In this document: piece after piece, positions 36,461 through 41,976 of the stretch | Numbering within the stretch: position 1 is the first letter of the stretch | How the letters are laid out: the number at the start of each line of letters is the position of its first letter | Assembly: GCA_025358205.1 (NCBI GenBank) | Contig: JANYKG010000035.1 | Coordinates: forward strand, 1-43,230 | Source: Armatimonadota bacterium | GTDB lineage: Bacteria > Armatimonadota > UBA5829 > DTJY01 | Direction of reading: 5' to 3' | DNA: 43,230 nt | The notes under the pieces: model-generated | The model's input: only the letters and a program-made list of their open reading frames with translations | What the model was told of the DNA's origin: nothing | The model's database searches: none | Program-made: the position numbers and the translations under genes

Positions 36461-36521
36461 GTGAGGGTATGGGAGTGATAGAGTATGGGAGTGTGGGGGT
36501 CGGGTTTCAGGTTTCGGGTGT
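36461..36521. repeat. Degenerate octamer array joined to a heptamer array
   Basis: Five 8-base units (consensus ATGGGAGT) at 36461-36500 are followed directly by three 7-base units (CGGGTTT, CAGGTTT, CGGGTGT) at 36501-36521. Reverse-complemented, the octamer (ACTCCCAT) equals the array at 39714-39745, and the heptamer resembles the array start at 39662. Confidence 0.75.
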
Positions 36522-37551: not shown

Positions 37552-38754
37552 CTACTCAGTCTCAAAGTCCAGCTTGCACGAGCCGGGTCCGTACATCGGC
37601 GACATCTCTCGGAGGCGTGACACGATCGGCGGGAGTACCTCCAGCACCTTATTCACGTCCGCGTCGGTGTTGTCCCTGCCCAGGGTCAGCCTCAGCGATC
37701 CGTGCGCCAGGTCGTGCGGCACGTTGATGCCCAGGAGCACGTGAGACGCCGCCAACGACCCGGACGTACACGCCGATCCGCTGGACACGCAGATGCCGCT
37801 GAAATCCAGCATCAGGATCATTGACTCGCCCTCGATGCCGGCGATGCTCACGTTCACGTTATTCGGAAGCCGCTTGTCACGACTGCCGTTCAGCCGAACG
37901 TCCGGTATCGCCTCCATGATGCCGTCAATCAGCCTGTCCCGCATGCCCTGCAGCCTCGCGCTCTCCACCGACATTGTCGCTCCCGCGATCTCGCACGCCT
38001 TGCCCAGCCCGACTATACCCGGGACGTTGTGAGTGCCCGCGCGCCTGCTGCTCTCCTGTGCGCCCCCGTGCAGATACGGCGGTATCTTCACGCCCTTGCG
38101 GACATACAGCGCGCCGATCCCCTTCGGCCCGTACAGCTTGTGACCTGAGAGCGAGAGCATGTCCACCTTCAGCGCATGAACATCAATGGGAACTTTACCA
38201 ACGGACTGAGTGGCGTCGGTATGGAAAACCACACCCTTCTCCCTCGCGATGGCACCGATCTCCGCGATAGGCTCTATCACGCCGATCTCGTTGTTCGAGT
38301 GCATGATGCTGATGAACACAGTCTGGTCCGTGATGGCCGCGCCGACCGCCGCCGGATCAACCAGGCCTTCGTCATCCACCGGAGCAAGCGTGAGGTCGTA
38401 GCCGCTGGTGCGTTTGAGATGTTCCATGGTGCCCAGCACGGCGTGATGCTCGATTGGCAGCGTGATGAGGTGTTTGCCCTTCGCCGCCGTAGCTTCTGCG
38501 GTACTCATGATCGCCCAGTTGTCCGACTCAGTGGCCCCGCTGGTGAAGTAGATCTCACGCGGGTCGGCGTTGATGAGCGCGGCAACCTGCTCGCGAGCTT
38601 TGTCCACGGCCACGCGCGCCTCGCGCCCGAAGCCGTACAGAGTGGACGGGTTGGCGAACTGCTTGATGAAATACGGCATCATCTCGCTCAGCACATCCGG
38701 GTGAACCGGGGTGGTCGCCGCGTGATCGAGATAGGTGATCTTTTTGTCGTTCAT
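37552..38754 (-). CDS. Cysteine desulfurase, NifS/IscS class
   Basis: A PLP enzyme that takes sulfur from cysteine as an enzyme-bound persulfide for Fe-S clusters. About 400 residues: TYLDHAATTPVHPDVLSEMMPYFIKQFANPST at the start, FHTDATQSVGKVPIDV (PLP-ring Asp and Gln), LSLSGHKLYGPKGIGALYVRKG with the Schiff-base Lys, RRAGTHNVPGIVGLG, and the catalytic cysteine loop SSGSACTSGSLAASHVL. ATG 38754 is chosen over 38760 because AGGAG is 7 bases before it. It is the second gene after a MarR regulator on the same strand, while the iscU scaffold it should serve is 30 kb away behind a paralogous MarR gene. Confidence 0.95.
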   Translation of the reverse strand: MNDKKITYLDHAATTPVHPDVLSEMMPYFIKQFANPSTLYGFGREARVAVDKAREQVAALINADPREIYFTSGATESDNWAIMSTAEATAAKGKHLITLPIEHHAVLGTMEHLKRTSGYDLTLAPVDDEGLVDPAAVGAAITDQTVFISIMHSNNEIGVIEPIAEIGAIAREKGVVFHTDATQSVGKVPIDVHALKVDMLSLSGHKLYGPKGIGALYVRKGVKIPPYLHGGAQESSRRAGTHNVPGIVGLGKACEIAGATMSVESARLQGMRDRLIDGIMEAIPDVRLNGSRDKRLPNNVNVSIAGIEGESMILMLDFSGICVSSGSACTSGSLAASHVLLGINVPHDLAHGSLRLTLGRDNTDADVNKVLEVLPPIVSRLREMSPMYGPGSCKLDFETE

Positions 38755-38804
38755 GGTCATTCTCCTGTCGGAGAAATGGTTGATGGTCGGAGGACTCGTG
38801 AATC

Positions 38805-38870
38805 GTACTCGTCTATCCTACTCGTACTCGGTCGTCTCTGAGGAACCGATTTTCGAGTACGAGTACGAGG
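38805..38870. repeat. Inverted TACGAG hexamer repeat between marR2 and nifS
   Basis: CTACTCGTACTCG (38818-38830) faces CGAGTACGAGTACGAGG (38854-38870), able to form a hairpin with a 23-base loop. It is in the marR2-nifS intercistronic gap. The same hexamer occurs at 16120-16149. Confidence 0.6.
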
Positions 38871-38894
38871 AAGATGCACGAGTTTGCTTCCTCG

Positions 38895-39428
38895 TCAGCC
38901 ATTACCCATTCCCCTGCTTTTGTTTACAATACATTCATCATTGTGCTCGACCCCACAGTGCAGGCACGCCTCGCCGGATAGCTCCCGCGTATCCAGCGCC
39001 GCCTCCACGAACCGCCCGAGCGATTCAACCAGATTCGCGCGGTCGGCAGGGTCCATCTGGTGTACTATACCCGCAAGCCGTTTGGTGCGCTCGGCCTCGA
39101 TGTTCTGGAGTATGGCCCGACCGGAGTCCGCTATCACCACGTCCGCCTGCCTTCGATCAGCGACGCCTGACCTGCGCTCCACAAGACCCTTGCGAACCAT
39201 GCGCTCCACTAGCATCGTAGCCGCTGGTTGACTGACAGAAAGCGCCTCTGCAATCCCGCCGATGGTACACGGGCTGTGGCTGGCGATGTGTCGGAGCGCG
39301 TTGAACTGCGACAGGCTGATCCCCTGCTGCTCACCGTCCGACAGGTTCGGCGCCATCAGCTTCAGCATGATGCGGGTGAATATGTCCGAGATATGCTCGG
39401 TTTGATCTAGTGACTCAGTGCGTTTCAC
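38895..39428 (-). CDS. MarR-family regulator with C-terminal Cys/His motif (copy 2)
   Basis: 177 residues from GTG 39428, preceded by AGGTAAA. MarR core about residues 30-135, with SVSQPAATMLVERMVRKGLV (recognition helix) and wing DRRQADVVIADSGRAILQNIEAERTKRLAGIV, matching copy 1 at 6146 throughout. The C-terminal cluster is C155-L-H-C158-G-V-E-H162-N-D-E-C166-I-V-N, the same spacing as in copy 1, which strongly suggests metal or Fe-S binding. It precedes nifS in a two-gene operon, and a 19-base perfect palindrome lies 32 bases upstream. Role as an autoregulated repressor of sulfur mobilisation is inferred. Confidence 0.87.
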   Translation of the reverse strand: MKRTESLDQTEHISDIFTRIMLKLMAPNLSDGEQQGISLSQFNALRHIASHSPCTIGGIAEALSVSQPAATMLVERMVRKGLVERRSGVADRRQADVVIADSGRAILQNIEAERTKRLAGIVHQMDPADRANLVESLGRFVEAALDTRELSGEACLHCGVEHNDECIVNKSRGMGNG

Positions 39429-39459
39429 TTTACCTGCCGCCCGCGGATAATCGCGTTAT

Positions 39460-39478
39460 CATATAATCTGATTATATG
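39460..39478 (-). promoter_or_regulatory. Palindromic operator and -10 region of marR2-nifS
   Basis: CATATAATC-T-GATTATATG is a perfect 9-1-9 palindrome. It contains TATAAT on both strands, so a regulator bound here would cover the -10 box of the marR2 gene. No strong -35 is visible (TTTTCC at 17 bases). Confidence 0.55.
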
Positions 39479-39514
39479 TTACCCGCTTTCTCAGGAAAAT
39501 GCAACATGTTTCCG

Positions 39515-39745
39515 GCTCGTTTCTCGATACTCGATTCTGGATGCTCGATGGAACCGACCCTTATTGCGTACTGCGTAATGCGTATTTCGTGTCGCGTGTG
39601 TTTGGCTCTTATTGTTCGAAGTTGAGTGTTGGAAGTTGGGCGTTGGATGTTCGTCCCCACGAACCCGGAACCTGCCTAACGACCAGCAACCATCAACCAA
39701 CAAATTCCGTACGCCCACACTCCTACACCCCCATACTCCCACACG
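39515..39745. repeat. Five successive arrays of degenerate short tandem repeats
   Basis: Array 1, 39515-39549, five heptamers near NCTCGAT. Array 2, 39563-39597, five heptamers near ANTGCGT. Array 3, 39614-39655, six heptamers near GTTGGAN. Array 4, 39662-39705, heptamers AACCCGG, AACCTGC, then four near ANCAACC. Array 5, 39714-39745, four octamers near CCCACACT. Each array has its own unit; spacers are 7-17 bases. All three reading frames on both strands give repetitive peptide, so this is not coding. Confidence 0.8.
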
Positions 39746-39782
39746 TCTCGCCCGCGTCTTCCATTGGGGGGCGCTCATGGCT

Positions 39783-39788
39783 TATAAT
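39783..39788 (+). promoter_or_regulatory. -10 element of the helicase gene
   Basis: Perfect TATAAT, 10 bases before ATG 39799, with no good -35 (TCCATT at 17 bases). Transcription would begin only a few bases before the start codon, and there is no Shine-Dalgarno site. Confidence 0.5.
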
Positions 39789-39798
39789 ATGGTCAATC

Positions 39799-41976
39799 AT
39801 GAGCAGTACATTCGACAAATTGAACGACATACAGCGCGTGGCCGTTGAACACGTTGACGGCCCGCTTCTTGTTTTTGCAGGCGCAGGCACCGGCAAGACC
39901 CGCGCGCTCACCTACCGAATCGCCCACCTCATCATGGAGGCAGGCATTGATCCGCGCAGCATCCTCGCGGTCACCTTCACGAACAAGGCGGCCAAGGAGA
40001 TGCGTGAGCGAATCGGCGAACTGGTCGGCGGCGCTACCCTTCGCGACATGTGGGTCGGCACGTTCCACGCCACCTGCGCACGGGTACTGCGCGAACACGG
40101 CGACGCGATCGGCATAGACCGGAACTTCGTTATCTACGACGATTCCGATCAGACCGTCGTCATCCGCGAGTGCCTGGAAGCGCTTGGTCTGGACGAGCGG
40201 GACAACCCACCGCGCAAGTTGCTCTACCTCATCAGCTCAGCGAAGGAACAACTGGTGATGCCGGAAGACTACCAGGAGTACTACAAAGGCAAAGTGGACC
40301 CGGTGATTGCCAAGGTCTATCCGCTCTATCAGAAGAAGCTGGCCGAGAACCACGCGCTGGATTTCGACGACCTGATCCTTCACGCGGTTCGCCTGCTCAT
40401 GGAATGCGATGAGATTCGCGCGCGGTACCAGGACAAGTTCTCTTACGTGCTGGTGGACGAGTATCAGGACATCAACTACTCGCAGTTCCAGTTCGTGAAG
40501 ATGATAGCGGACAAGCATCGGAACATCTGCGTTGTGGGCGATGATGACCAGAGCATCTACTCCTGGCGCGGGGCAGACGTTGGAATCATTCTCTCATTCC
40601 GCAAGACCTACCCGGACGCCAAGGTAGTGACGCTGGAGCAGAACTACCGATCCAGCCGAAACATCCTGGACGCTGCCTACCACGTAATCAACAAGAACGA
40701 GAACCGCGCGCCGAAACAACTCTGGACCGACCGACCCGAGGGCACACTGCTCTACAAAATGGAATCCGCGGACGAGCGCGATGAGGCCGTGAAGGTCATC
40801 AACCGCATCCGCGAACAGGTGATCGCGGGGGAACGCGGGTACTCGGATTTCGTGATTCTCTACCGCATGAACGCTCAGTCGCGAATCATGGAAGAGGCGC
40901 TGATGAACTACCGAGTGCCGTACAAGATCATCGGCGGCCTGCGGTTCTACGAGCGCAAGGAGATTAAGGACCTGATGGCTTATCTCCGTTTGGCGCACAA
41001 CCCGCACGACAGTGTGGCCCTGAAGCGCATCGTGAACGTGCCTCTGCGCGGAGTCGGCCCCACGTCAATGGACAAGCTGGAGATGTTCGCATCCGACAAC
41101 GGCATTACGCTCTACGAGGCGATGCGTCACGCGGACGTGGTGGGCATCCAGCAGACCAAAACCAAAGTTGCGCTGGCCGGGTTGGTGAAGCTACTCGACT
41201 ACATGCACGAGAAACGCGAGGAGTATCCGGTAGACAAGCTGCTCGCAGAGATCATTGAGAACACAGGCTATGTAAGAGAACTGGAGGCCCAGAAGTCCAG
41301 TGACGCTGAGTCCCGTGTGGAGAACATTCGGGAGTTCCACTCGGTGGTCACGGAGTTCGGAAACACGAGTGAGGACACAAGCCTGCGCGCGTTCCTGGAG
41401 CAGGTGGCGCTGGTGACCGACATAGACAGCTACGAGGAGGACCAGCCCGCTGTGACGCTGATGACTCTCCACGCCGCGAAGGGACTGGAGTTCCCGGTGG
41501 TCTTCCTTGTGGGCATGGAGGAAGGCATCTTCCCGCACAGCCGGTCCATGAGCAGCCGCGAAGAGATCGCCGAGGAGCGAAGACTCTGCTACGTGGGAAT
41601 GACCCGCGCGATGGACGAGCTTTGCATCAGCCACGCATTCAACCGCACGACCTTCGGGATGCGCGAACGCCAGGTGCCCAGCAGGTTCATCAAGGACATC
41701 CCGCCTGAGATGTTCCACGCGCCGAAGAAAGCGCCCGCCGCTGCTGCGACGGGTTCACTCTGGACGAACGGTGACAGACCCGCGCCGACGCCTACGCCCG
41801 CGAAGGTCGGCTTCAAGGTCGGCGACCACGTAAAGCATAACATCTTCGGCATAGGGCTGGTGGAGAACATGGAACCGAGCGGCAAGGACACGATGGTGAC
41901 GGTGACGTTCCAAGACGTCGGACGGAAGAAGCTGATGCTCTCGTTCGCCGCGCTTGAGAAGGCGGACAACTGGTAG
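39799..41976 (+). CDS. UvrD/PcrA-type DNA helicase
   Basis: A superfamily 1 3'-5' helicase of about 725 residues, typical length for PcrA. All motifs are present: FAGAGTGKTRALTYR (I, Walker A), AVTFTNKAAKEMRERI (Ia), VLVDEYQDINYSQF (II; DEYQD where DEFQD is usual), VVGDDDQSIYSWRGAD (III), LEQNYRSS (IV), LMTLHAAKGLEFPVVFLVGMEEGIFPH (V) and EERRLCYVGMTRAM (VI). The C-terminus after a proline linker (TPTPAKVGFKVGDHVKHNIFGIGLV) is the tudor-like domain that binds RNA polymerase in PcrA. The open frame to 39499 is repeat peptide, so ATG 39799 is used. The gene is probably leaderless. It works in nucleotide excision repair and replication fork clearance. Confidence 0.93.
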   Translation: MSSTFDKLNDIQRVAVEHVDGPLLVFAGAGTGKTRALTYRIAHLIMEAGIDPRSILAVTFTNKAAKEMRERIGELVGGATLRDMWVGTFHATCARVLREHGDAIGIDRNFVIYDDSDQTVVIRECLEALGLDERDNPPRKLLYLISSAKEQLVMPEDYQEYYKGKVDPVIAKVYPLYQKKLAENHALDFDDLILHAVRLLMECDEIRARYQDKFSYVLVDEYQDINYSQFQFVKMIADKHRNICVVGDDDQSIYSWRGADVGIILSFRKTYPDAKVVTLEQNYRSSRNILDAAYHVINKNENRAPKQLWTDRPEGTLLYKMESADERDEAVKVINRIREQVIAGERGYSDFVILYRMNAQSRIMEEALMNYRVPYKIIGGLRFYERKEIKDLMAYLRLAHNPHDSVALKRIVNVPLRGVGPTSMDKLEMFASDNGITLYEAMRHADVVGIQQTKTKVALAGLVKLLDYMHEKREEYPVDKLLAEIIENTGYVRELEAQKSSDAESRVENIREFHSVVTEFGNTSEDTSLRAFLEQVALVTDIDSYEEDQPAVTLMTLHAAKGLEFPVVFLVGMEEGIFPHSRSMSSREEIAEERRLCYVGMTRAMDELCISHAFNRTTFGMRERQVPSRFIKDIPPEMFHAPKKAPAAAATGSLWTNGDRPAPTPTPAKVGFKVGDHVKHNIFGIGLVENMEPSGKDTMVTVTFQDVGRKKLMLSFAALEKADNW

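Follow-up and report, generated by a model that had tools for sequence, protein, structure and literature searches.

Facing arrays of degenerate six- to eight-base words at gene junctions of an Armatimonadota genome

The intergenic regions of the Armatimonadota genome analysed here contain many short tandem arrays, which belong to about 13-17 word families as judged from reading 69 array-bearing gaps (0.64 Mb sampled) and which, when neighbours of the same family, mostly face each other across gene junctions. Five such arrays, with periods of 7, 7, 7, 7 and 8 bases, are packed into positions 39515-39745 of the window, a term used here for the whole analysed stretch of 43,230 nucleotides, contig C42 of an assembly of 4.08 Mb in 200 contigs. 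In each family the word is 6, 7 or 8 bp long, most of its positions are fixed (usually as a core of 4-5 bases) and a few are free; CAGTTCACGTATCACTCATCACTCATCA is an example of an arm. We tentatively favour, with somewhat less than even confidence, the interpretation that the arrays are rows of recognition sites for putative nucleic-acid-binding proteins and that the cluster consists of five arms of five families.

The five-array cluster and the recurrence of its words

The cluster is located in a divergent gap between a marR-family regulator gene on the minus strand (38895-39428; PF12802, E=5.7e-15), which forms one edge of the gap, and a UvrD/PcrA-type helicase gene on the plus strand (39799-41976; PF00580, E=2.4e-92), whose nearest named relatives are encoded in Armatimonadota MAGs (54% identity). 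Array 1 (39515-39550, minus strand) is built from the word ATCGAGN, which reads CTCGATN on the plus strand, and contains CCAG in one unit, as do several other copies in the genome. Array 2 (39562-39599, plus strand) has the word TGCGTAN. The word of array 3 (39613-39651, plus strand) is GTTGRNN, and this array ends with GTTGGAT-GTTCG, an end common to most other GTTGRNN copies. Array 4 (39678-39703, minus strand) is the weakest of the five; its units are ACCANCA-like and the nearest word family is ATGGTTG/CCATNAN. Array 5 (39714-39744, plus strand) follows the octamer word CCYAYACT with CCCACACT-like units. All five arrays precede the helicase start and a TATAAT-like box near 39783. A strict lag-7 self-match detector run over the whole 43 kb window reported the CTCGATN and TGCGTAN arrays and no others, and found no array in 20 Markov-1 simulated copies of the window; the GTTGRNN, ACCANCA-like and octamer arrays were detected by TRF and a looser detector. 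These measurements confirm what a preliminary description had read from the letters, namely five real degenerate arrays with these periods, in which several unrelated units stand side by side and vary at fixed positions.

Two further loci of the window carry related sequences. Hexamer GAGTACG arrays form an inverted pair (TACTCG ... CGAGTA) at 38794-38869, between a cysteine desulfurase-like gene and marR, and represent a paired locus typical of this array system. A second octamer CCYAYACT array is present on the minus strand at 36467-36497 (C42:36480-36497 in the genome pattern search). Directly upstream of marR we also observed the perfect palindrome ATAATCTGATTAT (39463-39475; chance expectation 0.02 with one mismatch allowed), which is probably a MarR operator.

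Word patterns were searched in the whole genome, with the identical pattern reversed as control for each word; for most families the data consist of such pattern counts. Matches numbered 56 for GTTGRNN (1 in the reversed control), 13 for TGCGTAN (1), 39 for ATCGAGN (0), 133 for CCATNAN (0) and 76 for the octamer CCYAYACT (2). The preliminary description had left room for a single locus degenerated by chance. Since all five unit types recur elsewhere in the genome against low reversed controls, the cluster is not such a locus. Besides these searches, samples of up to about 596-640 kb were analysed. In a 297 kb sample, 29 lag-7 arrays were found at a threshold of 10, compared to one in a single second-order Markov copy, and period 7 was dominant, with lesser peaks at 6 and 14.

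Placement, facing pairs and polarity

Using patterns derived from the reading of gaps, we counted 138 arrays in 640 kb. Intergenic gaps, which make up only 12.5% of the sampled sequence, contain 122 of them, while 16 overlap predicted genes. Hence, the arrays do not lie strictly between genes. Array density was 2.0 per kb in co-directional, 1.55 in convergent and 0.82 in divergent gaps; these densities are approximate because genes were predicted with our own simple codon-usage caller and part of the sample came from known GTTGRNN contigs. The higher density in co-directional than in divergent gaps agrees more with a function in RNA or at 3' ends than with one at promoters. There were 11 gaps with three or more arrays; 5.5 were expected by chance and the null distribution reached up to 12, which makes the accumulation of arrays in single gaps a modest effect. 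Loci that mix families are no exception in this genome, and the gap between marR and the helicase gene holds the densest mixture among the gaps sampled.

A fixed order of array types, which had been considered beforehand, was not found; the regularity lies in arrays of the same family facing each other. Among 23 cases of same-family neighbours, 18 were inverted and 5 direct, with spacers of 9-295 bp. Inverted matches of an array to the flank of its own locus occurred in 12.8% of flanks compared to 3.2% for the flanks of other arrays, and direct matches in 5.1% compared to 2.8%. Polarity was never mixed within a family, several families being represented by only one or two pairs: AGTGA, ATGGTC, AAATTCG, GGTG and CAGT words have one polarity, GAGTA and GTTG words the opposite one. 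In co-directional gaps, the left arm of most families is close to the upstream stop codon and the right arm close to the next start. The five arrays of the window cluster are single, unpaired arms. At L140:3897-4168 two families are nested concentrically, with ATGGTTG as the outer pair and CGAAC/GTTCG as the inner pair facing over a short loop. The short palindromes CCCTTCGACAAGGCTCAGGG and CCTCGATACG...TACTCGGG stand beside arrays at L030 near 1460-1500 and at L001 and L007.

The AGTGA/TCAC family was analysed in detail. Its right arm, the 24-mer TCACGTATCACTCATCACTCATCA, has 98 copies within three mismatches (control 0), 21 of them exact, which recent copying could also explain. The left arm that faces it is represented by TGATGAGTGATAAGTGATGAGTGA, and the first units of the two arms differ (right TCACGTA, left TCACTCA-like). 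At 16 of 20 co-directional junctions the right arm lies in sense orientation relative to both neighbouring genes. Loci agree in which unit occupies which position of the array (0.601 compared to 0.512 after shuffling of units, reached in 0 of 300 shuffles). From copy to copy, the sequence enclosed by the arms is unrelated (mean score 4.33 compared to 4.15 shuffled). Furthermore, no covariation between the arms was detected: pairing was 0.746 compared to 0.742 with swapped partners, and 103 of 500 shuffles scored as high, in a test weakened by some left arms being shifted by one unit in register. The unrelated loops and the missing covariation indicate that what is kept, or copied, in this family is the sequence of the arms rather than a stem.

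Distribution and possible origins of the arrays

According to the reading that we tentatively favour, a putative protein would read the core once per unit and ignore the free bases. GTTGRNN middle units, chosen solely by their two neighbours, are compatible with such a design: their GTTG positions were 81-85% constant and their free positions near the family composition. The position signature GTTGGAY-GTTCG at the 3' end was equalled in 1 of 300 shuffles. Facing arrays might be bound together over a gene junction and thereby separate or couple the expression of the neighbouring genes; we infer binding, bridging and an effect on expression from this arrangement. As the five arms of the window lie between marR and the helicase promoter, they would act there at the DNA level.

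Among 101 related genomes the words are patchily distributed. GTTGRNN occurs in 29 (several with equal numbers of control matches), AGTGATN in 13, AAATNCG in nine and GAGTAN in five, the last including a member of the same family (51 matches, 0 in the control) and one of a distant family (35 and 0). Within the family, the tested words are strong in G000, partial in G003 and absent in three other members. G089, of the same phylum and another family, has 35 GAGTAN matches with none in the control, the other tested words being rare or absent. Word families co-occur, GTTGRNN and AGTGATN being found together in 10 of the 101 genomes compared to 3.7 expected (p = 1.6e-4), with p-values that ignore relatedness and general repeat-richness. 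GTTGRNN arrays are also present in genomes of Nitrospirota and Bacillota, and the viral collection contains at least 120 stretches with them. Other families in the GTTGRNN-bearing viral contigs gave 57 matches compared to 38 with reversed words, which is not convincing. In a permuted-unit comparison of vocabularies, several Armatimonadota samples were significant when the query words were included, and Armatimonadota were not significant once these were excluded; Nitrospirota were not significant in either case. This loss of significance means that vocabulary sharing is a matter of pattern counts only.

The patchy distribution would also be expected of dispersed mobile repeats, similar to REPINs or MITEs, whose arms serve as ends for a transposition or recombination enzyme and whose mosaics arise by insertion beside or into older copies. 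We consider such an origin unlikely but worth weighing, as it would account for the many near-identical arms at unrelated loci, the inverted arrangement with fixed polarity and the overlap of arms with the upstream stop codon. However, the unrelated sequence between the arms shows that AGTGA-family pairs were not copied whole, and the two arms of this family differ consistently. No exact match of an AGTGA-family arm was found in the viral collection, nor any match of the window region to plasmid sequences. REP elements can form mosaics (BIMEs). REP sequences and REPINs with their RAYT transposases are short, dispersed, inverted and intergenic (PMC3116915), as are the arrays described here, but they are not heptamer arrays. 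A link to RAYT was rejected for the three Y1_Tnp (RAYT-type) genes of the genome, none of which is flanked by these arrays; their flanks carry other repeats. Two of these genes (L151 ~1170-1930 and L152 ~200-1930) are flanked by AAATGGGGACAGACACAATT and its inverse GTGTCTGTCCCCAT, resembling the ends of RAYT-type elements, and the third (L153 ~1380-2150) by palindromes that occur repeatedly and contain GGGAGCGC and GTGTCCTCAC. Gaps at L041:8357-9007 and L045:4333-4664 hold members of another dispersed family, formed by longer palindromes around CGGGATTTCCGAATCCCGAGC and GGATTCGGAAATCCAGTGCCAACA.

Alternatively, the arms could be maintained for base pairing in RNA, as terminators, mRNA stabilisers or hairpins at gene junctions. 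This is improbable, even though it agrees with the inverted, facing arms, their enrichment in co-directional and convergent gaps, the proximity of left arms to stop codons and of right arms to the next start in most families, and the orientation bias of the AGTGA right arm. In addition, the region 38761-38895 around the hexamer pair folds strongly as RNA (z = -2.62). The AGTGA-family arms speak against pairing, since besides lacking covariation their inner units mismatch consistently between the two sides. The window cluster, located in a divergent gap, folds no better than shuffled sequences (z = 0.52 as RNA and 0.32 as DNA); no terminator-like signal was found there, and a search of 38700-39850 with Rfam covariance models gave no match up to E = 1. 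A hairpin at the cluster was therefore rejected (z 0.3-0.5).

The bacterial excess of heptamers has been attributed to slippage, and the arrays could represent ordinary heptamer microsatellites that arose by polymerase slippage and decayed by mutation. Among long repeat periods, bacteria have been described as favouring heptamers (Mrazek 2007, as cited in PMC4679880 and PMC4692102). The related genomes G043 and G105 contain homogeneous arrays of the same word, and small samples of G043, G118 and G017 showed homogeneous arrays with higher neighbour identity, which suggests that slippage may act elsewhere. In the present genome we regard this origin as very improbable. Adjacent GTTGRNN units were identical at their free positions in 7.9% compared to 9.2% between different arrays, and CCATNAN units in 13.7% compared to 19.6% expected. 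Neighbours are thus no more alike than unrelated units, which argues against recent slippage in these two families and contradicts the preliminary suggestion of such an origin where it was tested. The concentration of variation at certain positions and the recurrence of position-specific unit signatures at different loci point in the same direction. As for the other origins proposed in that description, nothing here supports reverse transcription of a guide, while recombination of pre-existing arrays is a possible source of the mosaic.

A coding reading, in which the helicase has a repetitive extension at its N terminus or a separate reading frame exists, was rejected and has practically no probability. 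An open frame does continue upstream of the helicase as far as an ATG at 39499, but neither the 100-codon in-frame upstream stretch nor the opposite-strand ORF matches a Pfam family, relatives align from helicase residue 1-8 without need of an extension, and these words also form arrays in intergenic regions of every context.

Known repeat systems and biological meaning

Simpler forms of such arrays are already known. The closest description concerns Geobacter metallireducens, in which multicopy 'global regulator binding sites' consist of facing pairs of tandem octa- or heptanucleotides at variable distance, with the classes GTTGCTYN x4, TCTCCGTSY x3, MTYCTGA x5 and GGACCGG x4, and for which binding of IHF/HU was proposed (PMC2700814). 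Compared by description, both systems have dispersed tandem units of degenerate 7-9 bp words, pairs on opposite strands and several unrelated classes (PMC2700814). Multicopy arrays of 3-5 such units are present here, and opposite-strand pairs at variable distance occur genome-wide, while the window cluster consists of single arms. In contrast to the few classes of 16-49 sites in G. metallireducens, the genome analysed here has 13-17 families with up to 133 matches each, and several of these are mixed in one gap.

Other known arrays differ more strongly. The TAACTGA repeats of marine Beggiatoaceae are intergenic heptamers of 2-6 units that occur genome-wide and have been proposed as post-transcriptional sites; they represent one exact word, with related heptamers being rare, and lie near start codons (PMC4679880), whereas the arrays described here comprise many degenerate words, inverted pairs and left arms at stop codons. 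Xanthomonas and Nostoc contain many intergenic heptamer arrays per genome (GGGAATC and GGGGA(C/T)T, respectively; PMC4692102). These are G-runs that form G-quadruplexes, with one type per genome, unlike the words reported here, which do not consist of G-runs. Units of 6-9 bp were noted as enriched in prokaryotic phyla in a survey of tandem repeats (PMC12699852).

The arrays described here are degenerate mosaics of many families, and near-identical adjacent units were not found in GTTGRNN and CCATNAN arrays. The STRR heptanucleotides of cyanobacteria are likewise intergenic and tandem but consist of few fixed units. The earlier judgement that a single STRR-type repeat is insufficient as an explanation was thus borne out.

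A genome with many array families, mosaics and pair polarity is new and much richer than these systems. A far-reaching version of the interpretation combines the more than a dozen degenerate words of 6-8 bp, the lineage-patchy code, the facing arrays over junctions and the independently drawn free positions. It would involve either a large number of regulators that read arrays or a template-using enzyme that synthesises degenerate repeats, with the same words seeded in distant members of the phylum; we give it a low probability. The unit statistics argue against slippage in the tested families and for a sequence-specific constraint on the fixed positions, combined with an arrangement in pairs at gene junctions. 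Should the arrays be mobile, they would represent a new type of dispersed element. If they are recognition sites, as we tentatively suggest, an entire layer of elements at gene boundaries exists in this genome, together with their putative readers.
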